Under the pieces are notes generated by a model that was given only the letters and a program-made list of their open reading frames with translations, was not told the DNA's origin and did not search any database. Positions 1,665 through 19,001 of a stretch of DNA of 64,000 bases are shown here, piece by piece. The position numbers and the translations under genes were made by a program. Numbering within the stretch: the stretch's first letter is position 1; every line of letters begins with the position of its first letter. The stretch is from Pseudomonas pergaminensis (GTDB lineage: Bacteria; Pseudomonadota; Gammaproteobacteria; Pseudomonadales; Pseudomonadaceae): contig NZ_CP078013.2 of assembly GCF_024112395.2 (NCBI RefSeq), positions 1,798,001 through 1,862,000 of the forward strand. The letters are read 5' to 3'.

Positions 1665-2005
1665 ACACTGCCCCCCAGTTGCAGCGGCAGGCTCATGCTC
1701 AACGGCTCGTTGGTGTCGACGATGGTGCCTTCCAGCTCCAGCACGGACTGACCTTGAAGGTTCGCGCCGAGAAACTGCACACGGCTGAGGCTGATGCGGG
1801 TTTCCCAGCGCATCAACGCCATGACGGTGCCCGCGTAGACACGCAGACGTGTAGCGTCGTTGAAGGGATGGTCTACCAGCTCGGGCAGCAGGCTGCCGTA
1901 TTCGCGGCGCATCACTCGGGTGCCGATGCGGGTGGTGAGGATGTCCGTAATGCTCTGGCCGATGTGAGCCAGGTCGCCGATGGCGCCGCCGGTTTCTCGG
2001 TTCAT
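1661..2005 (-). CDS. W: Baseplate assembly protein W (gp25-like)
   Basis: 114 residues, the standard size for gpW, which belongs to the T4 gp25-like family of baseplate wedge proteins with a lysozyme-like fold. Visible family features are the ILTTRIGTRVMRREYGS segment and the DPF-type loop region DHPFNDATRLRVYAG. The gene overlaps V upstream and J downstream by four bases each, so all three are likely translated as one unit. Confidence 0.92.
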   Translation of the reverse strand: MNRETGGAIGDLAHIGQSITDILTTRIGTRVMRREYGSLLPELVDHPFNDATRLRVYAGTVMALMRWETRISLSRVQFLGANLQGQSVLELEGTIVDTNEPLSMSLPLQLGGSV

Positions 2006-2574
2006 GTTGGCTTACCTGATAGATCGTCGCCTTGCTTGACGCCCTTGGTCAGGTGATTGACCAGGCTGATGCCCGCTGCGACTACGTCTTCCGAAACGTC
2101 TACACGGCCGACCACGTTCTGATTGCCCGTTTGGTTGTAATCGCCCAGATGATTAATCGGCCCGATGATGTTGATCCCGCCCTTACTCACCAAGCTGGTG
2201 GTGCCACTGTCGGGTAGGGTGGCGCTCAGGTGATGTTGGACGCTGTCGTACTCGATTACCGCGCCATCGGCGTAGGTGCGACGGTGCAGGCCGGCGCGGT
2301 TGCCGTTGGCGGGTATGTGGTCGCTGGGCAGGCCGGTGATGACGACGCCATTGGCGAGCTGGCCGGATGGGCTGAACAGGATGACCTGTTCGTCAACGGT
2401 GGGCGGATCCCACTCCCGATCGGCACCGGCGCGCAGGGCGAGCCATGGCAGCCAGGCGGTGGTCAGTGAACCAGTTTTTACCTGAACGCGCGGGGGCTCC
2501 ATCTGCACGGCGGCGATGACGCCGAAGCGGATGAGGTTTTCGAGCATGCGGGAGAGGGCGGCGAAGTCGTTCAT
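2002..2574 (-). CDS. V: Baseplate assembly protein V (spike)
   Basis: 190 residues from MNDFAALSRMLENLIRFGVI. The frame is open 20 codons further upstream, but the extension is basic and unlike the family, so the internal ATG is preferred. gpV forms the trimeric central spike: an N-terminal OB fold followed by a C-terminal beta-helix. The sequence shows the OB-like part, with WLPWLALRAGADREWDPP, and a repetitive glycine/asparagine-rich tail. It is the first gene of the V-W-J-I-H block. About 140 bp upstream the strand switches to the cargo gene. Confidence 0.92.
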   Translation of the reverse strand: MNDFAALSRMLENLIRFGVIAAVQMEPPRVQVKTGSLTTAWLPWLALRAGADREWDPPTVDEQVILFSPSGQLANGVVITGLPSDHIPANGNRAGLHRRTYADGAVIEYDSVQHHLSATLPDSGTTSLVSKGGINIIGPINHLGDYNQTGNQNVVGRVDVSEDVVAAGISLVNHLTKGVKQGDDLSGKPT

Positions 2575-2700
2575 GGCGCCGATGGTGGCGTTGCGCGTGC
2601 GAGAGCGCAGCAGCTTCGCGTTGTAAGGGCGCACGTTACAAGAGGCGGTTTCTAGGCTAGTGTCAGCCTTGCCAAAATGAGTGCTCGAATAAAAACCTTC

Positions 2701-2707
2701 AAAGGAG
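2701..2707 (+). promoter_or_regulatory. Strong ribosome binding site deciding the cargo gene start
   Basis: AAAGGAG lies eight bases before ATG 2716 and supports that codon over the in-frame ATG at 2677. Confidence 0.7.
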
Positions 2708-2715
2708 TGAGCTTA

Positions 2716-3939
2716 ATGCTATCAATACTTCATCCGAGCGTTATGCGAAAGGTATACGAACTTTCGGTTGGTCTATTACCCGTATTAGTCAGGGGTGATT
2801 CAATTCCTAAGTTGATTGTTAAAATATCAAAGGAAGCTATTTTGACCGCGAAAATGCGGCAGTCCTTCAAGATTCATCTTATTCCTTATGAAATTCCCGG
2901 CGTTAAGTCTGTAGGCTTCTTAGCGGCATTTTTTGATGATGAGCGACACCCGTACACTACAGGTGGGGCACTAATTAAGGAGTTGGCGGGGAGGGAGTTG
3001 TCTAAGCTGTTTTTGTCCCCTCAAGTTGATGTTCATTTTTTTGATGAGCTTGGTAGGGAAATGCTTGCTTATAGAGCTGAGTTTAAATCCACAAAAAAAC
3101 ATAGAGATATGCTGCGTGGTGCAGTTATCCCGAGCGTTCATGGTTTGAATCAGAGCGCAATACTGAGTGAGATGTCAGATTGGCATATGATAAGTGGCCC
3201 GGCAGATGATGAAGCCGCGATCAGCGTAAAATTTCTAGAACCGCTGATGCCCGAAGATATTGTATATTTTGATATGCGTCCAGAGAACCACCGCTATCAT
3301 GGTAGTGAGGGATTCAGTTCATTTACTCTCGAAAGAGAAATGCCAGGCCCTCCGCAGGAAAAAGAAATTATTGCTTTACTTGAAAGAACGTTTGACTCGA
3401 ATAGTATCTATCTTGCCCCCAAAAAAACTTATGATAAAGAAGAGGTGGTAGATATTCTTGTGGTTAGCGATGAGAGCGTTATCTTGATTCAGGCGAAAGA
3501 CAATCAAAATCTTGAGGGGATTCTGAATAAAACAATTGAGAAAAAAAGAACGGCTACAAATAAAGCTTTGAAAAAAGCTATTGCTCAGGTCAAGGGAGCA
3601 ATAGGTTATCTAAAGCGGTCGGATGATTTTGTTGTGCTTATGGATGGAAAAGAGGTTGAGATAGTTCTGCAAGGGAAAAGGGTTTATTCAGTTATAGTGG
3701 TAAAGGAGCTTTTTGACGATGATTACGATGAATACACGCCGCCAATGCTTGAGCTTTATCATCAAACTGGAATTGCTTGCATTCCTTTGTCCTACAGCGA
3801 GTTGCATCAGTACTGTCAGTATATTCATGGGGACGCAGCGTTTTTTGAAGCATTTATGAAAGTTTTCAATCACGGGCTGGAGACTGGGATGTTCCCTCGA
3901 TTGCGCGTTCTGCCCCCGGGATCTGTTGTCAATAACTAG
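2716..3939 (+). CDS. AT-rich cargo protein with a PD-(D/E)XK nuclease-like motif, inserted in the tail cluster
   Basis: 407 residues; family not recognised. Residues 210-300 look like a restriction-endonuclease-type core: an acidic helix near E215, a strand ending in D246 (VVDILVV), then the strand VILIQAKD giving Q259-x-K261, followed by a basic amphipathic helix (270-300). That D...QxK spacing resembles Mrr/NERD-like PD-(D/E)XK domains. The first 200 residues match nothing I know. The gene is clearly AT-rich and read against the tail genes on both sides, with its own strong ribosome binding site. It occupies the S-V interval, where phage P2 carries its non-essential gene orf30. A lysogenic-conversion or defence role is an inference from position, composition and motif only. 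Confidence 0.75.
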   Translation: MLSILHPSVMRKVYELSVGLLPVLVRGDSIPKLIVKISKEAILTAKMRQSFKIHLIPYEIPGVKSVGFLAAFFDDERHPYTTGGALIKELAGRELSKLFLSPQVDVHFFDELGREMLAYRAEFKSTKKHRDMLRGAVIPSVHGLNQSAILSEMSDWHMISGPADDEAAISVKFLEPLMPEDIVYFDMRPENHRYHGSEGFSSFTLEREMPGPPQEKEIIALLERTFDSNSIYLAPKKTYDKEEVVDILVVSDESVILIQAKDNQNLEGILNKTIEKKRTATNKALKKAIAQVKGAIGYLKRSDDFVVLMDGKEVEIVLQGKRVYSVIVVKELFDDDYDEYTPPMLELYHQTGIACIPLSYSELHQYCQYIHGDAAFFEAFMKVFNHGLETGMFPRLRVLPPGSVVNN

Positions 3940-4397
3940 GTCGCAGTGAGATGCGATAAAAGACTGTCGCGGATCATATCTAGATCCGCGTCAGTAAATC
4001 CTAGAGTCTCCCGCTGTTCATAACGAGTATAAGGGGCGCCACGTTCCGCACGATCCTTCAAACCATATTGGTGAACCCTGGCAATACGGGCAATCCGCCC
4101 GGTGAAGCCTACCGTCACAGTATTGCTATCCCCACGAACCTTCAGATACGACGCGGTCCGCAGCTTCTTGAACATCGCCAGCTTCCGCTTAACCCGCCCC
4201 TGCTTCCCCCGCAGGTTCCGCTGCTTACGCGGCGCAAACTTGCTCCCGTCCGGATTCTCCTGGGCCATCACCCGCTTCTGCTGACTGCGGCGCAGTTCCT
4301 GCCCAATGCTTCTGGCAAGCTTGCTGCGCTCCCCTGGCTCCAGCCGTTCCAGCAGCACCGCCGCCCAGGTCTCCAGCGCTTCCAGGTTATTCGCCAT
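3936..4397 (-). CDS. S: Phage virion morphogenesis / tail completion protein S
   Basis: 153 residues from MANNLEALETWAAVLLERLE. P2 gpS-type proteins finish the tail tube end for head joining. The sequence shows the basic segment KFAPRKQRNLRGKQGRVKRK and the conserved ARVHQYG motif. The open frame extends upstream, but this ATG sits just inside the end of R, as normal for the R-S pair. The stop overlaps the end of the convergent cargo gene by four bases, so the insertion took place immediately behind S without damaging it. Confidence 0.9.
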   Translation of the reverse strand: MANNLEALETWAAVLLERLEPGERSKLARSIGQELRRSQQKRVMAQENPDGSKFAPRKQRNLRGKQGRVKRKLAMFKKLRTASYLKVRGDSNTVTVGFTGRIARIARVHQYGLKDRAERGAPYTRYEQRETLGFTDADLDMIRDSLLSHLTAT

Positions 4398-4869
4398 CAG
4401 GCACTCGCCATTCACTGGTGTTGCCCTGGGCCCCAGGCCTCCAGTTTGGATTGAGGTAGCCAACCACGTACTGCGGTTCGTTCGGGTGCTTGACGGTGGT
4501 ATTGCCCTGGGCATCTTTGCCGACGACGACTTTTTCTGTCAGCGACAAAGTAATGCTGAGGTCCACTTTGTCCTTGTCGAGGATGTCGGCTTCGAACTGG
4601 ATGCCATTTTTGACCTTGTCCAGGTTCTCCAGCAGCTCGGACTGGTTGACGCTGAGCCAAGCCAGGATGGGCAGGAACACGCTGTCAGGGTGGCCGGCGA
4701 ATGCGGTGAGGATGATCTGCAGATCGAAGCTGTATTCAAACGACAGCGTATGTGCGGCGGTGCAACGGACCTTGCCGTTGTCGATGAATATCAACAGGCG
4801 GTCGGGGTCGTGCTTCAACTCGGCGACGGTGGCCAAGAGGTGAGCGCGCAGGCTTTCGTGCTTGTTCAT
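4387..4869 (-). CDS. R: Phage tail completion protein R
   Basis: 160 residues from MNKHESLRAHLLATVAELKH. It matches the P2 gpR family in size and in the core with LSFEYSFDLQIILTAF, and acts with S in completing the tail. The start forms an ATGA overlap with the stop of LysC upstream, and the end overlaps S by 11 bases. An upstream in-frame extension of 16 codons is ignored because it would run into lysC. Confidence 0.9.
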   Translation of the reverse strand: MNKHESLRAHLLATVAELKHDPDRLLIFIDNGKVRCTAAHTLSFEYSFDLQIILTAFAGHPDSVFLPILAWLSVNQSELLENLDKVKNGIQFEADILDKDKVDLSITLSLTEKVVVGKDAQGNTTVKHPNEPQYVVGYLNPNWRPGAQGNTSEWRVPDGE

Positions 4870-10203: not shown

Positions 10204-10358
10204 GTCGGGAATCCTCAATGCATAGGGCGCTTGATGCGTTGCAATGAGGGGCATGGTCGTGACGCGCGCGAGTTGCGGCAACGGGGCGGGATTGTAGGGA
10301 GCGGGACTACAAGGGGCAGCGCTACTGACTCGCCGGCGCGGGCGGCAGCATCGCGGCC

Positions 10359-12116: not shown

Positions 12117-13165
12117 TGTCGAACCGCCGCAGAAATACCAAGCAGTTGGCCCAGCCCGCTACGGTTTCAACGCAGGAGTTTATTCCGCGCAGTGACAGCA
12201 AGATGGAGGCGTTCAGCTTTGGTGATCCATCACCGGTGCTGAGCAGCCGGGAGGTGTTTGATTACCTGGAGTGCTGGTTTAACGGGCGGTGGTATGAGCC
12301 GCCGCTGTCGCTGGATGGGCTGGCGCGCTCGGTGGGTTCTAGCGTGCATCTGCATTCGGGGCTGATGTTCAAGCGCAACCTGTTGAGCAAGACGTTTATC
12401 CCGCACCGGCTGTTGTCGCGCGCTGCATTCGAACAGTTCGCCCTGGACTTCCTATGCCTGGGTAACGGCTATCTGGAAGGACGGCGCTCGATGCTCGGCC
12501 TGGTGCGCGAGCTGGTACCGCCGCTGGCGAAGTACATGCGTACGGGCAAGGACGGGCGGCAGTTCATGGTCCAGGGCTGGAAGGAGGAGCATGAATTTCA
12601 ACCGGGTACGGTCTTTCATCTGCGAGAGGCGGATCTACACCAGGAGGTGTACGGGCTGCCTGAGTGGATCAGCGCGTTGCAGTCGGCGTTGCTGAATGAG
12701 TCGGCCACGTTGTTTCGCCGCAAGTATTACGAGAACGGCAGTCATGCTGGCTTCATCCTCTACATGACCGATGCCGCGCAGAACGAAGCGGATGTCGATT
12801 CACTGCGTAAGGCGCTCAAGGATTCCAAGGGGCCAGGTAACTTCCGCAACCTGTTCGTGTATTCGCCGAACGGTAAAAAGGACGGGTTGCAGATCATCCC
12901 GGTCAGTGAAGTGACGGCCAAGGACGAATTCAACTCGATCAAAAACCAGACCCGCGACGACGTGCTGGCCAGCTTGCGCATTCCGCCGCAGTTGATGGGC
13001 ATCGTGCCGCAAAACGCGGGTGGTTTTGGGTCGATCAGGGAGGCGGCGCAGATCTATGCGGCCAATGAACTGGAGCCGATTCAGGCGCGTATGGCGCAGG
13101 TGAATGACTGGCTCGGGGAAGAGGTCGTGCGCTTCAAGCCCTATGAAATTCCCGTGGGGGGCTAA
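12116..13165 (+). CDS. Q: Portal protein Q
   Basis: 349 residues from MSNRRRNTKQLAQPATVSTQ. The family is phage portal, PBSX type; the dodecameric ring forms the packaging vertex. Characteristic segments are CWFNGRWYEPPLSLDGLARS, ASLRIPPQLMGIVPQNAGGFG and the end WLGEEVVRFKPYEIP. Its start overlaps the terminase stop. In P2 the Q gene is the last one before cos, and here it is followed by a highly structured non-coding block. Confidence 0.95.
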   Translation: MSNRRRNTKQLAQPATVSTQEFIPRSDSKMEAFSFGDPSPVLSSREVFDYLECWFNGRWYEPPLSLDGLARSVGSSVHLHSGLMFKRNLLSKTFIPHRLLSRAAFEQFALDFLCLGNGYLEGRRSMLGLVRELVPPLAKYMRTGKDGRQFMVQGWKEEHEFQPGTVFHLREADLHQEVYGLPEWISALQSALLNESATLFRRKYYENGSHAGFILYMTDAAQNEADVDSLRKALKDSKGPGNFRNLFVYSPNGKKDGLQIIPVSEVTAKDEFNSIKNQTRDDVLASLRIPPQLMGIVPQNAGGFGSIREAAQIYAANELEPIQARMAQVNDWLGEEVVRFKPYEIPVGG

Positions 13166-13167
13166 AA

Positions 13168-13279
13168 CCCCCTGCGCAGCAAACGAGGCGACGAACCGGT
13201 GCGTCAACGCCGGTTCGACGCTGAAACACTCGAACACGCCGAGTGCTCCAACCAAGGCCTCGCCCCACTGCGCAGGGGG
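13168..13279. other. Multi-branched inverted-repeat block after the portal gene; cos candidate
   Basis: A perfect 12-bp inverted repeat (CCCCCTGCGCAG at 13168-13179 and its complement at 13268-13279) encloses a 6-bp stem (13184-13189 with 13257-13262), a strong hairpin (13192-13217, about 10 bp, loop CGTCAA) and a second hairpin (13227-13245). Drawn together they form a cloverleaf. The minus strand reads GGCGAGGC at 13264-13257, and the P2 cohesive end as I recall it also begins GGCGAGGC. P2 layout places cos exactly here. It could instead be a structured RNA or a terminator complex. Confidence 0.5.
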
Positions 13280-13322
13280 TGCGAAGCCTAAGCGAATCCA
13301 ATTGTCGAAACAAGGATCACTT

Positions 13323-14117
13323 ATGAGCACACCGATAATCCCGTGGATGGGCGGCAAGCGTCGCCTGGCAGATCGCCTTATTCCGCTGTTCCCACCACAT
13401 GAATGTTACGTCGAGGTCTTTGCCGGCGGCGCAGCGCTTTACTTCATGCGGCCCCAGGCTGCGCCGGTTGAAGTCCTTAACGACATCAATGGCGACTTGG
13501 TGACGTTGTACCGCGTGGTGCAGAACCACCTGGAAGAGTTCGTGCGCCAGTTTAAGTGGGCACTCAGCTCCCGCCAGGTGTTCGAATGGCAGAAGATGAC
13601 CAGGCCGGAAACGCTCACCGACATCCAACGGGCTGCGCGATTTTTCTACCTGCAGCACCATGCGTTCGCGGGGAAAGTCAGCGGGCAGACCTTTGGCACG
13701 GCCACCACCGGGCCGGCGATAAACCTGCTGCGGATTGAGGAGAACCTATCCGCTGCCTGGCAGCGGCTCTCCGGGACCTATGTTGAAAACCTGGGCTGGT
13801 TGGAATGTGCTGAGCGCTACGACCGGCCACACACCTTCCACTACATGGACCCGCCTTACTGGCAGACCGCCGGTTACGGAGTGGACTTTGCCTTTGAAAA
13901 CTACGAGCGGATGGCCGAGTTCATGCGGCGCTGCAAGGGGAAGGTAATGGTCAGCATCAACGACCACCCCGATATTCGCCGTGTGTTTGATGGGTTTCAC
14001 TTTGAAACGGTGGACATCCGTTACAGCACGGCGAACCAACGGCAGGGTAAAACCGAGGTGAGCGGCGAGTTGGTGATCATGAATTGGGAGCCAGCAGCAC
14101 TGGGTGGGCTGTTCTAG
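13323..14117 (+). CDS. D12-class N6-adenine DNA methyltransferase (Dam-like)
   Basis: 264 residues from MSTPIIPWMGGKRRLADRLI. Motif I for S-adenosylmethionine is EVFAGGAALY (31-40), preceded by the PWMGGK motif, and the catalytic motif IV is DPPY (176-179). It probably methylates adenine in a short target such as GATC, but specificity cannot be read from sequence. It follows the portal gene on the same strand after the structured block. Phages often carry such orphan methylases against host restriction. The frame extends upstream through the structured block, but the ATG at 13323 gives the normal family N-terminus. Confidence 0.9.
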   Translation: MSTPIIPWMGGKRRLADRLIPLFPPHECYVEVFAGGAALYFMRPQAAPVEVLNDINGDLVTLYRVVQNHLEEFVRQFKWALSSRQVFEWQKMTRPETLTDIQRAARFFYLQHHAFAGKVSGQTFGTATTGPAINLLRIEENLSAAWQRLSGTYVENLGWLECAERYDRPHTFHYMDPPYWQTAGYGVDFAFENYERMAEFMRRCKGKVMVSINDHPDIRRVFDGFHFETVDIRYSTANQRQGKTEVSGELVIMNWEPAALGGLF

Positions 14118-14794
14118 AGCACTGGCTCGATCAAACTGGCGCCCTTGTTTCTCACGTTGCCCACGGCGGTGCTGACCTTGAACCATTCAAAGGCCTCGGC
14201 CGGCTCGCCCTGGTGCAACACCATCTGCTCGGCACGTTCTTTTGGCGTTGCCGGGTCCAGCCATTCGCGGGCAAGGTCCGGCGTCAGAACCACGGGCCTT
14301 CTGTCGTGAATGTCCACCATTCCGCCAGCGCTGTCGGCGGTGATGATCACAAAGCCGTCATGCTCGCCTGGGCCTTCATAGGGGTCTGGTAGTTGGCCGA
14401 TGGCCGCGCAGAAGATCGGCGCGCCGTCCCTCCTGCGGATCAGGTAGGGCTGTTTTTTCGGCCCACCTTCATCCACCCACTCAAACCAATTGTCGATAGG
14501 CGTGATTGCCCGGTGCGGCCAGATCGCCCGGAAGAAAGGGCCGTGGGCGACCTTTTCGACGCGTGCGTTGATCGGTGCGGCGCGGTCTTTCGCCCAATGC
14601 GGTCGCCACCCCCAGCGAACTGGATCAGCGTGCAGCATTTCACCTTGCAGGTGCAGCAATGCCACCTGGGTCGTCGGAGCAATGTTGTACCGCTCGATAG
14701 GTTGGTCGCCCACCGAGTTTGCCAGGGCGTTGGGCATGCTCAGCGCCGCAACGAAGTCATGGATTCCCCTGTACTGCGACAGCCTTCCGCACAT
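14114..14794 (-). CDS. SRAP-family SOS response-associated peptidase (YedK/HMCES-like)
   Basis: 226 residues from MCGRLSQ. C2 becomes the N-terminal catalytic cysteine that links covalently to abasic sites in single-stranded DNA. Other active-site positions are visible: N37 in YNIAPT, N76 in INARVE, E105 in NWFEW and H163 in DIHDRRP. The start is fixed by the need for Cys directly after Met. It is convergent with the methylase (stops overlap by 4 bases) and lies downstream of a coiled-coil gene behind a perfect LexA box, so it is likely SOS-induced. Confidence 0.92.
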   Translation of the reverse strand: MCGRLSQYRGIHDFVAALSMPNALANSVGDQPIERYNIAPTTQVALLHLQGEMLHADPVRWGWRPHWAKDRAAPINARVEKVAHGPFFRAIWPHRAITPIDNWFEWVDEGGPKKQPYLIRRRDGAPIFCAAIGQLPDPYEGPGEHDGFVIITADSAGGMVDIHDRRPVVLTPDLAREWLDPATPKERAEQMVLHQGEPAEAFEWFKVSTAVGNVRNKGASLIEPVL

Positions 14795-14819
14795 AGCCAA
14801 GCCCTCCTTCCGTTTGATC

Positions 14820-15158
14820 TTAGACAATCGTGGTCGGTCGAGGTCTCATCTCGTTGACGATTCGCTTCAGGCCTTCGGCTTCACGCTGACTTACGGTCAG
14901 TGACGTCGTTAGGGTGTCGATCTGCTTGCGCATCTCAGCCGCTTCACCGCCTCTCTGACGGAGGTATCCAGCGAACTCGGCGTTCTTGGCCTGGGTAGCC
15001 AGCAGCATCTGGCTGATTCCAAAGACATCCTCCCGTGCTTTGCGCAGTTGCACGTTCAGGTCCTGGATCTCGTTCTCCAGGAGGCGGCAGTGCTGCCGGT
15101 ACATTTGCAATGGGGTAGGGAGGCCAAGCCAGCCGAGGGTGTCTTCATCGTTATTCAT
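14820..15158 (-). CDS. Small coiled-coil protein in a LexA-controlled pair, function unknown
   Basis: 112 residues. After a short N-terminal part (GWLGLPTPLQMYRQHCRLLE) almost the whole protein is predicted coiled coil, in two blocks: LENEIQDLNVQLRKAREDV and AEMRKQIDTLTTSLTVSQREAEGLKRIVNEM. There is no signal or membrane segment. The gene precedes the SRAP peptidase by 25 bp on the same strand, and a perfect SOS box ends 17 bases before its start, so both are probably induced together by DNA damage. I do not recognise the family. Confidence 0.75.
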   Translation of the reverse strand: MNNDEDTLGWLGLPTPLQMYRQHCRLLENEIQDLNVQLRKAREDVFGISQMLLATQAKNAEFAGYLRQRGGEAAEMRKQIDTLTTSLTVSQREAEGLKRIVNEMRPRPTTIV

Positions 15159-15365: not shown

Positions 15366-15756
15366 CCAATAAACACGGGGCTTCGGGGGCTGCGCTGGAG
15401 GAACCCAGCGAGCTGCCGGCTGCGTGGGGAGTTGGCGTGCCACATTTAGGGCCACAGGCGTGCTACACCGGGGGCATTGGCGTGCTTCACCACCCGGCGC
15501 GCGCCGTCGTCCCCCCACCTCGCCTGCGGGCTAAATGGGTCGTTTTTTCTGCGCACCTTCGGACCATTCGCAGCGGCCCAGCTTGGGGCTCTGATCGTCG
15601 TTGTGGGGGGGGGGAAGCCTGCGGAACCCTGCGAAGGTGGGGGGGGCGCAAAGCTCACAACCGTGTGAGAGCAGCCGGATCCAGTTGCTGCCTCGGGAAA
15701 AGGGTTAGGTTTTTTTTGAGTGGGGCGTGTTCGGCTGGAAGCCCCGTATTTATTGG
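15366..15756. repeat. Inverted repeat, 19-bp arms 353 bp apart
   Basis: The left arm CCAATAAACACGGGGCTTC (15366-15384) is the complement of the right arm at 15738-15756 with one mismatch. The interior is GC-rich with poly-G tracts and carries no gene. It may be the border of a small mobile or regulatory unit or a long structured transcript. No transposase is present. Confidence 0.6.
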
Positions 15757-15972
15757 GCTTGAGACCTAACTTTGATGGGTTAGGTTGGGTTAGATTAAAA
15801 GTTAGGAGTCTGTAACTATATGTTTTTAAAGGAAATAATGTGTTGAGTATTTAACATCAATAACGGTTAGGTAATTACCAGTGCTAACCAGAAGCTAACT
15901 TTGCCAGTCCTTCGCAAACCCGTACCAGACAAGGCTTTCATAGCATCCAGTAAAAAACTAACCCTCCTAACC
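15703..15972. repeat. Cluster of GGTTAG motifs in both orientations
   Basis: GTTAG-core motifs occur at 15703, 15765, 15777, 15787, 15801, 15865, 15884, 15895, 15958 and 15966, in direct and inverted orientation, within 270 bp of AT-rich DNA. The density is iteron-like and suggests a protein-binding region (origin or repressor sites), but the spacing is irregular and no replication gene is nearby. Confidence 0.45.
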
Positions 15973-16180
15973 TCTTTGCCGTGGGTCAACATGAAAACGC
16001 GAGATGCGCCTAGGGCGGTGGCTTTTGAAGCTGCGTATTGCATTGCGGAGTGCTCACATCCCTTACGTTCACGCACACGCGTTATCACCTACAAGCTTAG
16101 GATGTGGGTGTTTGCAGAGGGCATTGGGATTGGAGTGAGAGAGACTTGTGGTAAAGCACGTACATCATGCATAAGCAGGA

Positions 16181-16212
16181 TCGCTGCCGTCTACATTAAG
16201 TAGAGGCAGCGA
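16181..16212. terminator. Hairpin at the 3' end of the ATPase gene
   Basis: TCGCTGCC and TCTAC pair with GTAGA and GGCAGCGA around a short ATTAA loop, giving a 13-bp stem with one bulged base. It lies just beyond the stop of the minus-strand ATPase gene. It lacks a long T tract, so it is a terminator or RNA-stabilising hairpin. Confidence 0.55.
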
Positions 16213-16220
16213 CTTTATAC

Positions 16221-17660
16221 TTATGGTGCACTCAATTCCAACTCGTTGAAGATCTGCATAGGGTCTTCTGGTTGGAGAGCCCACCTATAAGCGGGATGAA
16301 CCTCCCAGTCGTAACCGAAGTCTACAAATTTATTAGAGAGATACCTATTTTCTTCGAAATACTTACGATCAATACCGGCAGCAGTTGCCTTGCGAGCGGT
16401 GATGAAATTTATTTTGAATAAAAAGGCGGCGAGTTCTTGGGTTTGTATTAATCCGCTGTTAGCCCAGCGGAATTTGCCTTGTTCTTCGATGCCCTTAAGT
16501 TTTTTCAGTAATAGGTCGGTTGTATAGATATAACCCTGTCCCAGTTTTCTTTGGGCCTTAGTAGGACGCATTCCCAAAATCAATCTCTCGATAGTCGGAA
16601 GCTCAGATCTGTATTCATTTATGGTGTCTTGAAGTCTGCCCTGAGAGTACTCTTCGAAAACAGCTTCTAGATTGCGCGTTGTAATTACTGTGGAGTTCTT
16701 TGACTTTGCTTCGCGGCCAGCTAGAGTCAAAAGCTTTACCAAGTCCCGGGGTCTTTTTCGAATAAGGGACATTAGCACTCGATACATGGGTGCATCTTGC
16801 CAATGACCTTTGCCGGAGAATTTTTCTTCGATGATCGGGCTTAAGTAGTGCATCATCTGTGACTGATGTTTTTCTAAGAATTCGGCTTCGGTAACTTTTC
16901 CACCAAAATAGCTATCAATTCTTTTTGATAGTAACGCTAGGATCTCATGATTACTCCAAGAGAACCAGATTACCGAGCCTTCGGTTTTATCGGTAGATTC
17001 ATCAGATGTCCGTGCTAGGTAATAAACATCTGAACGCAGGCTGATTCGGAAATAAATGCCGCGATTCTCAGTAGAAATATCTCGGATGGCATTCAAAAGT
17101 GCAGAAATTCGTTGGATGTCGTGTTTGCGTCCTTGCCATCCACGGTCAAGATCATCAATGTAGACCGAAATTTTTTGATGTTGAAGAAAGTCTTTCAAGA
17201 TTGCTTGTTTTGCCGGAGTAAGATCTGCTTTGTCCTGTTTGATAGTTGATGAGAGGAAGTCTAAGGCCGCACCACCGTATTGGTTTAGTTTTCCTCTCCA
17301 ACCATCGTATAACATCCCGAATGATGTTAAGGCTTTCTTAGCTATAATCTCGTTTATTCCAGTCTTCCAATCTCTAATCATTTTCAAAAAGTCGTCGCTA
17401 TCTTCTCCGATGTCGACAATATCATTGGGCCTAATTAAAAGGGTAAGGCGGTTTTTTAATGATTCTTCGTTTATAGCGACTTGAAACAGTGCTGATTTTC
17501 CTACACCCTTATGTCCGACGACTATTCTTAGTGGCAGGTCGTTAACAACTTGAGCGTAAGTTTTGCCTTTGAAGTAATATTCCCTTAGGCGTTCTGGATC
17601 TTCATCTTCGGCAGCTTCATGGCCGAACAGTTTTTGCAATTCAAATTCTTCGAAATCCAT
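16221..17660 (-). CDS. P-loop ATPase, Sll1717-like family
   Basis: 479 residues. Walker A is GHKGVGKS (49-56) and Walker B ISVYIDDLD (164-172), followed by an AAA/STAND-like sensor region with RISLRSDVYYL and a C-terminal helical part. The start MDFEEFELQKLFGHEAAEDED is typical of ATPases annotated as the Sll1717 family; their biochemical role is not established. The gene is markedly AT-rich against the flanking genome and has a GAAGG ribosome binding site. It lies on its own between a prophage and integrase debris, which fits mobile cargo, possibly defence. No effector gene is adjacent, so a defence role is speculative. Confidence 0.8.
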   Translation of the reverse strand: MDFEEFELQKLFGHEAAEDEDPERLREYYFKGKTYAQVVNDLPLRIVVGHKGVGKSALFQVAINEESLKNRLTLLIRPNDIVDIGEDSDDFLKMIRDWKTGINEIIAKKALTSFGMLYDGWRGKLNQYGGAALDFLSSTIKQDKADLTPAKQAILKDFLQHQKISVYIDDLDRGWQGRKHDIQRISALLNAIRDISTENRGIYFRISLRSDVYYLARTSDESTDKTEGSVIWFSWSNHEILALLSKRIDSYFGGKVTEAEFLEKHQSQMMHYLSPIIEEKFSGKGHWQDAPMYRVLMSLIRKRPRDLVKLLTLAGREAKSKNSTVITTRNLEAVFEEYSQGRLQDTINEYRSELPTIERLILGMRPTKAQRKLGQGYIYTTDLLLKKLKGIEEQGKFRWANSGLIQTQELAAFLFKINFITARKATAAGIDRKYFEENRYLSNKFVDFGYDWEVHPAYRWALQPEDPMQIFNELELSAP

Positions 17661-17699
17661 TTTGCGACCTTCTTTGTAGAGGGTGTTATAGAATTATTT

Positions 17700-17897
17700 T
17701 CAGTTCTGAGCACAATTTTTTCTTGAAATATCTCGCGTCTCTGCGAAAAGTCGCCAGCGTTTCAGAGGTGCCACTCCAAAATTAGTTGTACCTCTATCTT
17801 CTACAGTCGAGACAAGGCCCATCGAAGCTTCTTCGATATACGGATGTTTTTCCTGGATTCTGGAGAGTACGTCGGATTGGGGATATTCGGTGGGCAC
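17700..17897 (-). CDS. Possible small protein or gene fragment upstream of the ATPase
   Basis: 65 codons beginning with GTG (MPTEYPQSDVLSRIQEKHPY) and ending 39 bp before the ATPase start. The composition is protein-like (balanced charge, segment GVAPLKRWRLFAETRDIS), but there is no ATG and no clear ribosome binding site. It may be the tail of a decayed gene. The remaining stretch 17898-18226 shows nothing recognisable. Confidence 0.35.
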   Translation of the reverse strand: MPTEYPQSDVLSRIQEKHPYIEEASMGLVSTVEDRGTTNFGVAPLKRWRLFAETRDISRKNCAQN

Positions 17898-18226
17898 GTC
17901 ATCGACTCCATTCGTATGCTCTTAGAGGATAGCAGTCAGATCAATCAAAATGCCATCACCTCAAAGGCGAGATTTCGTTCGATGATACAGGCGGGGCTTC
18001 CAGCAAAGAGAAGCGTCCGTGGGGGACCTCGATTTTGCTTAAGTTTTCTCGCCTGCATAGGCAGGCAATATCATGGTGGTTTGATAGAAGATCTGCATGC
18101 GCCAGAAACCAAAATCTATTCATTTGTCTTTTGAATCAATAAGTTGCGATCTAATATTTTGACGATCAATGAAGAGCGTACTGCCTTTTTACTAGTCAGG
18201 TCCTTTCTGCTTTGGGCACGACCAGC

Positions 18227-18442
18227 TCAGGGGCGGCCCAACCTTTTCAACCTCGCTAGGCCCTGCTTTATGTGGCCGGCGTTATCATCGAGTGTGTGAA
18301 GTGCCCCCCGCACGTTCTCTCCTATTTCAAAATTGTTTTGCTGCTCAGCCCAAATAGTCAGCTCCATCACAGCCGCTTCGAGCGCCAGTTGATTTTGATA
18401 AAGTCTTTCCAGCACATCTGCCAATGAGTATTCGCTTGTCAT
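18227..18442 (-). CDS. Small helical protein, function unknown
   Basis: 71 residues from MTSEYSLADVLERLYQNQLA; the frame is open 17 codons further upstream without a better start. The sequence is almost wholly helical (ALEAAVMELTIWAEQQ, ENVRGALHTLDDNAGHIKQGL) with a short basic tail, and has no signal or membrane segment. Codon use is convincing. It stands alone between the ATPase region and the first copy of the direct repeat, so it is probably part of an accessory element. Not recognised. Confidence 0.6.
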   Translation of the reverse strand: MTSEYSLADVLERLYQNQLALEAAVMELTIWAEQQNNFEIGENVRGALHTLDDNAGHIKQGLARLKRLGRP

Positions 18443-18540
18443 GGTATGCGACTCGTTCTCAAAGAGCTCAAGCATAGCAGTGGCAAATCTCATAGTTGCG
18501 AAGGTCGAAAAAAAGGGCGGAGCGTCAGTGCATGGGGGTG

Positions 18541-18637
18541 GTGTTGGTACGAAAGTGGTACGGAATTTTCTGAGATGCTTGGAACATCACGTTTGATGTG
18601 GCCTGCAGAATTAGCTGTTCCAATCCATCACCGAAAA
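18541..18637. repeat. Direct repeat, copy 1 (about 97 bp)
   Basis: Begins GTGTTGGTACGAAAGTGG, containing two TGGTACG units 11 bp apart. After a diverged 35-bp middle comes a second conserved block (GTGGCCT..., TTCCAATCCATCA). Copy 2 is at 20510-20606 with the same spacing between blocks. It probably represents recombinase arm-type sites or an attachment-site duplication. Confidence 0.65.
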
Positions 18638-19001
18638 GGCTGATGTTTTTCGCTCATGACCGGCAGCAGTCGGCCAAAAGCAGTCACTGCGCGGATGCTG
18701 AATGGGAAGCGGTGAGCGTCTGGTGTGATGTGGGTTCGAACCTCCCCTTCACCGCCAAACTCAAAAAAAACAAACAACTGATTTTCCTAGAGAAAGTCGG
18801 GAATTTGTGGTTTTTTACGTCAAAAATATAGCCCCATGGGACCACCATGAGACTGGCACTTCTTTTTGGTGCGCTTTTGGGTCGCCAGATAGGGGGCAAT
18901 TGCTCTCTCTGTGAACTTAATGTTAAACCCACCACTCGTTACAGAAGGGGGCCAATTCGTGTGCCCCGTCTTCAACTGTTTGAAAGCTTGGGTAGGAAGT
19001 C
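18638..19001. other. Gene-free stretch containing a tRNA-Ser 3'-end relic
   Basis: Apart from the tRNA-like fragment at 18732-18757, open frames here have no ribosome binding site and poor composition. The DNA after the fragment is AT-rich. No promoter stands out. Confidence 0.5.
18732..18757 (+). other. tRNA-Ser 3'-end fragment, likely attachment-site relic
   Basis: GGGTTCGAACC, then CTTCACCGCCA, resembles the T-arm and acceptor end (with CCA) of Pseudomonas tRNA-Ser. No 5' half with a matching acceptor strand (GGTGAAG) lies within 100 bp upstream, and the T-stem is imperfect, so this is not a functional tRNA. Such 3' fragments are normally left by integration at a tRNA gene. Confidence 0.6.

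Follow-up and report, generated by a model that had tools for sequence, protein, structure and literature searches.

Within a 64,000-nucleotide stretch of the Pseudomonas pergaminensis genome (contig NZ_CP078013.2, positions 1,798,001 to 1,862,000; hereafter the window), a gene lying between the tail genes S and V of a P2-like prophage encodes a predicted nuclease. We put at roughly 0.7 the probability that this gene is lysogenic-conversion cargo, specifying a stand-alone DNA nuclease that most likely protects the lysogen from other phages. The fold, the active site, the dispensability of the gene, its position in a cargo slot and its horizontal movement are supported by the analyses described here, and from them we infer a role in defence; the product is most likely a single-gene anti-phage nuclease that resembles the Shedu system in its manner of action and is not Shedu by profile.

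The nuclease gene is real and under selection, because it has close homologues (60–97% identity) and because the ratio of nonsynonymous to synonymous substitution rates (dN/dS) between it and its nearest homologue is 0.106 (synonymous sites were saturated in the remaining pairs). The open reading frame (ORF), at 2677–3939 on the plus strand, has 420 codons when counted from its first ATG; the start used by homologues is the ATG at 2716, behind the sequence AAAGGAG, which gives a protein of 407 residues. The GC content is 0.39–0.44 along the gene (about 0.42) and about 0.60–0.65 on both sides of it, and that of the whole 1358-base-pair (bp) interval between S and V is 0.43, versus 0.61 for S plus V. 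The gene and S converge, the CTAG at 3936–3939 being common to both stop codons, and there is no second ORF of at least 50 codons in the interval. The original prediction, made from the letters of the DNA alone, had a gene reading against the tail genes with its own ribosome binding site and lower GC content, and the ORF, the AAAGGAG and the base composition bear this out.

The C-terminal half of the protein is predicted with high confidence to form a FokI-type PD-(D/E)XK nuclease domain. A PD-(D/E)XK-like arrangement involving D246, Q259 and K261 had been proposed for this half; the three residues lie where they were said to lie and, together with E215, do not vary in any of the 121 sequences aligned (the window protein plus 120 listed of 250 matches), and the fold, in a predicted rather than a solved structure, agrees with the proposal. 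The predicted structure contains the core fold of the superfamily, and the alignment shows its conserved acidic residues and the lysine of a (D/E/Q)xK motif. Sequence searches of the Protein Data Bank with the single protein and with a profile gave nothing meaningful, the best profile rows (E at least 0.07) being isomerases and ABC transporters. The family had also been called unrecognised, which holds for Pfam, NCBIfam and PADLOC, where no family name exceeded its cut-off for the window protein, but the family proves to be widespread outside phages.

The gap between S and V is a general cargo slot of P2-like prophages, and what it carries is often defence-like. Matches to gpS were found in 74 of 398 genomes of the genus and matches to gpV, mostly distant, in 229, and from the matches listed we assembled S–V pairs by hand, obtaining 60 fetched intervals that together with the window make 61. 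Left out were G106 (its S and V lie on separate contigs), the degraded pair G237:C11, G037 and G124 (V not among the matches listed), V matches without a usable S (e.g. G027, G119 and G173) and S matches weaker than that of G358 (E 1.6e-16); G358 and G175 (204 bp, probably decayed) were retained though their S is partial. When an interval of 150 bp or more is counted as filled, 26 of the 61 are empty (61–84 bp) and 35 are filled (204–3549 bp). Every one of the 35 filled intervals has a higher AT content than S plus V (median GC content 0.45 versus 0.62), whereas the empty ones do not (0.67 versus 0.63), and by BLASTP the filled intervals contain about 20 unrelated kinds of cargo. The kind found in the window is present in only 2 of the 61, and the nuclease is therefore not a structural gene, let alone one fixed in every related phage, which would have spoken against the original prediction. 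In its position, in the box kept by V and in its variable or absent content, the gap corresponds to the accessory orf30 locus of P2-type phages.

The sequence TGT-N13-ACA lies 40–50 bases before the aligned V start in 58 of the 61 intervals, versus 1.8% of shuffles, and is absent beside V in three (L163, L181 and L190). Any other spacing from 6 to 20 occurs in at most 3 of the 61, and the P2 form, TGT-N12-ACA, in none. The late promoters of P2 carry TGT-N12-ACA and are Ogr-dependent (PMC3931495), and the Ralstonia P2-like phage RSY1 has the 13-base form of the box (PMC5694545). The order in the P2 record is S, a terminator, the reversed orf30, the pV activator site and V. Given this order and the 58 boxes beside V, the cargo borders the end of a late operon on one side and the activator box of the following operon on the other, and the claim that the nuclease gene is inserted, inverted, at the P2 orf30 position is supported, orf30 being reversed at the same place. 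The orf30 region is recorded as variable in P2-like phages in the available portion of PMC3091744, which holds no survey of it as a defence slot; the locus differs from the two described P2 defence hotspots, gpA–gpQ (old/tin) and Z/fun (PMC9122126, PMC9519451). P2-like prophages of P. syringae are reported to carry defences (PMC13182921). We met neither a survey of S–V cargo in Pseudomonas nor a description of this nuclease family in the open-licence literature, which is not proof that none exists in print. Among named phages, D14A is empty at S–V, Sirocco has a helix-turn-helix gene and a small ORF, Dobby has a 242-residue protein of no known kind and Burkholderia phage KL3 has a reversed methyltransferase.

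We kept 52 cargo ORFs, of which 39 were scanned with PADLOC (the window protein was scanned separately, and both L179 ORFs, five L190 ORFs and five small ORFs were left out) and 20 with Pfam. PADLOC models matched nine of the 39 proteins, as PD-T7-4 (2), PDC-S31 (3), PDC-S15 (2), PDC-S64 (1) and PDC-M36A (1, E 1e-10), matches being assigned per protein for six of the nine and deduced for the other three from the tally and the BLASTP clusters. Pfam matches among the 20 were to DUF4145 (2), FRG, DUF2971 (2), Mrr_cat, CBS, NYN with OST-HTH, P22_AR_N, HEPN/Toprim with an adjoining RiboL-PSP HEPN, and RHH, and the other eight proteins had no match over the cut-off. The cargo families L137/L156/L157/L163 and L158/L159 are examples without any Pfam match. 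RHH/ParE-like toxin–antitoxin cassettes occupy the slot in L167 and L179, with RHH recognised by Pfam in L167 and the toxin partner by reading only.

Matches of any strength to the nuclease occur in 27 of the 398 genus genomes, in six of these at 55% identity or more. All 15 fetched loci with at least 63% identity, the window's own included, lie at S–V of P2-like prophages (several are one record reached via two collections, and L096 reaches the end of its contig on the right). In the tree these S–V copies form one clade (11 rows, support 99/97) within Pseudomonas members located elsewhere, and the Pseudomonas members are nested in a wider family from several phyla, with loci from Pseudomonadota, Acidobacteriota, Bacteroidota and Thermodesulfobacteriota. 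A tblastn search of 50,697 phage records gave no match to the nuclease, and 4 of 72,556 plasmid records matched at 30–32% identity. The clade has moved between phages, since its identities disagree with those of the surrounding genes: in the L032–L093 pair the nuclease is 92% identical and J and V 81%, and in the window–L095 pair the nuclease is 68% identical and J, V and S 86–89%. The 63 other loci of the family gave no match to the prophage I, J, W, V, S or R proteins, some of their flanks being short. No neighbour cluster spans more than three of these loci (ORFs of at least 80 codons were compared, so smaller genes would escape), and the nuclease therefore acts alone or with host factors, in keeping with the single-gene system originally envisaged. 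In L099 and L100, distant members adjoin helicase-like and OLD-like ATPase genes, a Gabija-like pair by reading; the GajB matches in the pooled neighbour scan were not assigned to single loci.

If the nuclease is defensive, the lysogen would express it from a promoter of the gene's own, without dependence on the late genes. The N-terminal domain would sense a sign of infection, which might be a DNA end, a modified base or a phage structure, and sensing would release the nuclease to cut the invading DNA, or all DNA if the system is self-destructive, the prophage's own DNA being spared. Several observations weigh against a defensive role or against parts of this scheme. No sigma-70-like promoter was found upstream of the gene, no PADLOC model matches the nuclease, and we found no anti-phage assay of the family in the open-licence literature. 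Some cargo of the slot does not look defensive, such as the P22_AR_N antirepressor domain in L189 and the hydrolase-like and LysR-like genes (by reading alone) in L190. Since only the C-terminal domain matches in Foldseek, the TM-scores of the whole model to the structures found are low, at about 0.2 by query length. Finally, 240 PADLOC families matched near the gene versus 71 far from it (E 1e-10; 128 of 193 ORFs within 2.5 kb and 128 of 175 ORFs 5.5–8.5 kb away, in 42 of the 63 loci), but the near count is swollen by many GajB models matched by few helicases and the far set also has defence matches (AbiE, PD-Lambda-5, UzuA and reverse transcriptase), so the comparison supports no conclusion.

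The best-ranked structures matching the isolated N-terminal domain include DUF984 (presumably ASCH), many YTH domains and PF0455/PH0355, followed at lower rank by the N-terminal domains of Eco15I and NhoI and by AspBHI. YTH domains are readers of N6-methyladenosine, and modification-dependent enzymes are known to join a reader domain to a nuclease. These likenesses would fit a modification-dependent restriction enzyme whose PUA-superfamily (YTH/ASCH/SRA-like) N-terminal domain reads a modified base while the C-terminal domain cuts, an explanation that we consider unlikely. Somewhat less probable still is that the nuclease serves the lytic cycle of its own prophage, for instance in host DNA breakdown or DNA processing, and not defence. 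The gene is located in a phage, and some phage nucleases are known to degrade host DNA (see also PMC3091744), but it is missing from 59 of the 61 S–V intervals of related prophages and reads against the late operons, and the family extends beyond these phages, to the 63 other loci. The two-gene cassettes of L167 and L179 invite the notion of a toxin from a toxin–antitoxin or abortive-infection pair, silenced by its antitoxin, yet the interval in the window contains no second ORF of at least 50 codons and the other loci show no recurrent partner (though a small antitoxin would escape that comparison), which makes this account very improbable. A bolder form of the defensive reading, which we hold to be unlikely, is a one-gene anti-phage system not yet described, in which a sensor domain resembling the PUA superfamily (YTH/ASCH type) would be fused to a FokI-type nuclease and would read the invader's DNA state or a modification of its bases. 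Such a system would have spread as cargo in a third P2 defence slot, bounded by promoters and so far little explored in Pseudomonas.

Table 1 Features of the nuclease gene and its surroundings (positions in the window).
Feature	Position	Strand	Basis or remark
Predicted nuclease gene, 407 codons	2716..3939	+	N-terminal domain without fold assignment and predicted C-terminal FokI-type PD-(D/E)XK domain
AAAGGAG, ribosome binding site of the nuclease gene	2701..2707	+	Read directly from the sequence
N-terminal domain, about residues 1–195	2716..3300	+	No clear fold match
C-terminal nuclease domain (predicted), residues 205–397	3328..3906	+	Aligned to FokI cleavage domain
Codon of E215, invariant; proposed helix glutamate of the active site	3358..3360	+	Conservation; putative role
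Codon of D246, invariant; proposed catalytic aspartate	3451..3453	+	Conservation; putative role
Codons of Q259-A260-K261, QxK form of (D/E)xK; Q and K invariant	3490..3498	+	Conservation; putative role
Gene S (tail completion), bordering the cargo slot on one side	3936..4400	-	Pfam Phage_tail_S
Gene V (baseplate assembly), bordering the cargo slot on the other side	2002..2580	-	Pfam Phage_base_V
TTGTA-N11-TACAA (TGT-N13-ACA), Ogr-type activator box of the V late operon	2621..2641	-	Motif and P2 layout
Second copy of the same box	10292..10312		Between divergent O and P (named by reading and position, no family scan)

The start of the window lies inside the prophage, whose R, S, V, W, J and I genes were named by Pfam (P2_Phage_GpR, Phage_tail_S, Phage_base_V, GPW_gp25, Baseplate_J and Tail_P2_I), and the prophage continues upstream of the window in the same genome, where one ORF was judged integrase-like from reading alone. 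In that upstream part (L217:8554-10822) there is a third AT-rich cargo pair (GC content 0.42–0.43), of which one member is a nucleoid-associated protein of the NA37 type (2e-54) and the other, 418 residues long, matches no Pfam family. At 13104–14827 the prophage encodes an adenine methyltransferase of the D12 class and, in reverse orientation, an SRAP peptidase; the two adjoin a portal-like gene, beyond which a second AT-rich stretch (about 15500–19000, GC content 0.40–0.52) may be a gpA–gpQ-type cargo slot or the edge of the prophage. It includes a 479-residue protein (16221–17660, minus strand) that reads like a P-loop ATPase and has a weak ORC-CDC6-like match (0.008).

Should the defensive reading hold, the list of candidate phage-defence genes would gain a widespread family of one-gene nucleases whose active site can be tested, and P2-like prophages could be searched by a simple rule, at the stretch from S to the V-operon activator box. 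About 20 unrelated cargo kinds, many without a named function, occupy the 35 filled sites there.

Shedu consists of one nuclease that degrades phage genomes (PMC12948488). SduA_C did not match the window protein at E 0.1 and matched 1 of 50 family members at E 0.017, and the nearest nuclease fold of the window protein appears to be that of FokI/BspD6I, not SduA. GapS1, a Gamma-Mobile-Trio defence protein, was likewise rejected as a family name (NF047931, 8.8 bits versus a cut-off of 320; hhalign E 0.29 with four GapS1-like sequences), as was NERD (PF08378; 12.9 bits versus a gathering score of 22.1; profile comparison E 0.063), which matched 16 of 50 family members at E up to 0.1 (best 0.0012); both align weakly with the nuclease over the active-site stretch, D...(E/Q)xK. 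The C-terminal domain has at most 16% identity to the cleavage domains of FokI and R.BspD6I and has QxK in place of the FokI motif, which we take to be DTK, and the FokI recognition part is not among the structure matches of the isolated N-terminal domain. Membership in type II restriction–modification was rejected as well: unlike FokI and R.BspD6I, the nuclease has no methyltransferase alongside it, being the one ORF in its interval and having no recurring neighbour in the 63 loci, and the D12 methyltransferase of the same prophage is 9 kb away. PD-T7-4 and the PDC candidates, which have no BLASTP link to the nuclease, share with it the S–V slot of related prophages, and the P2 orf30 locus shares its layout, with S, reversed cargo, activator site and V in identical order.
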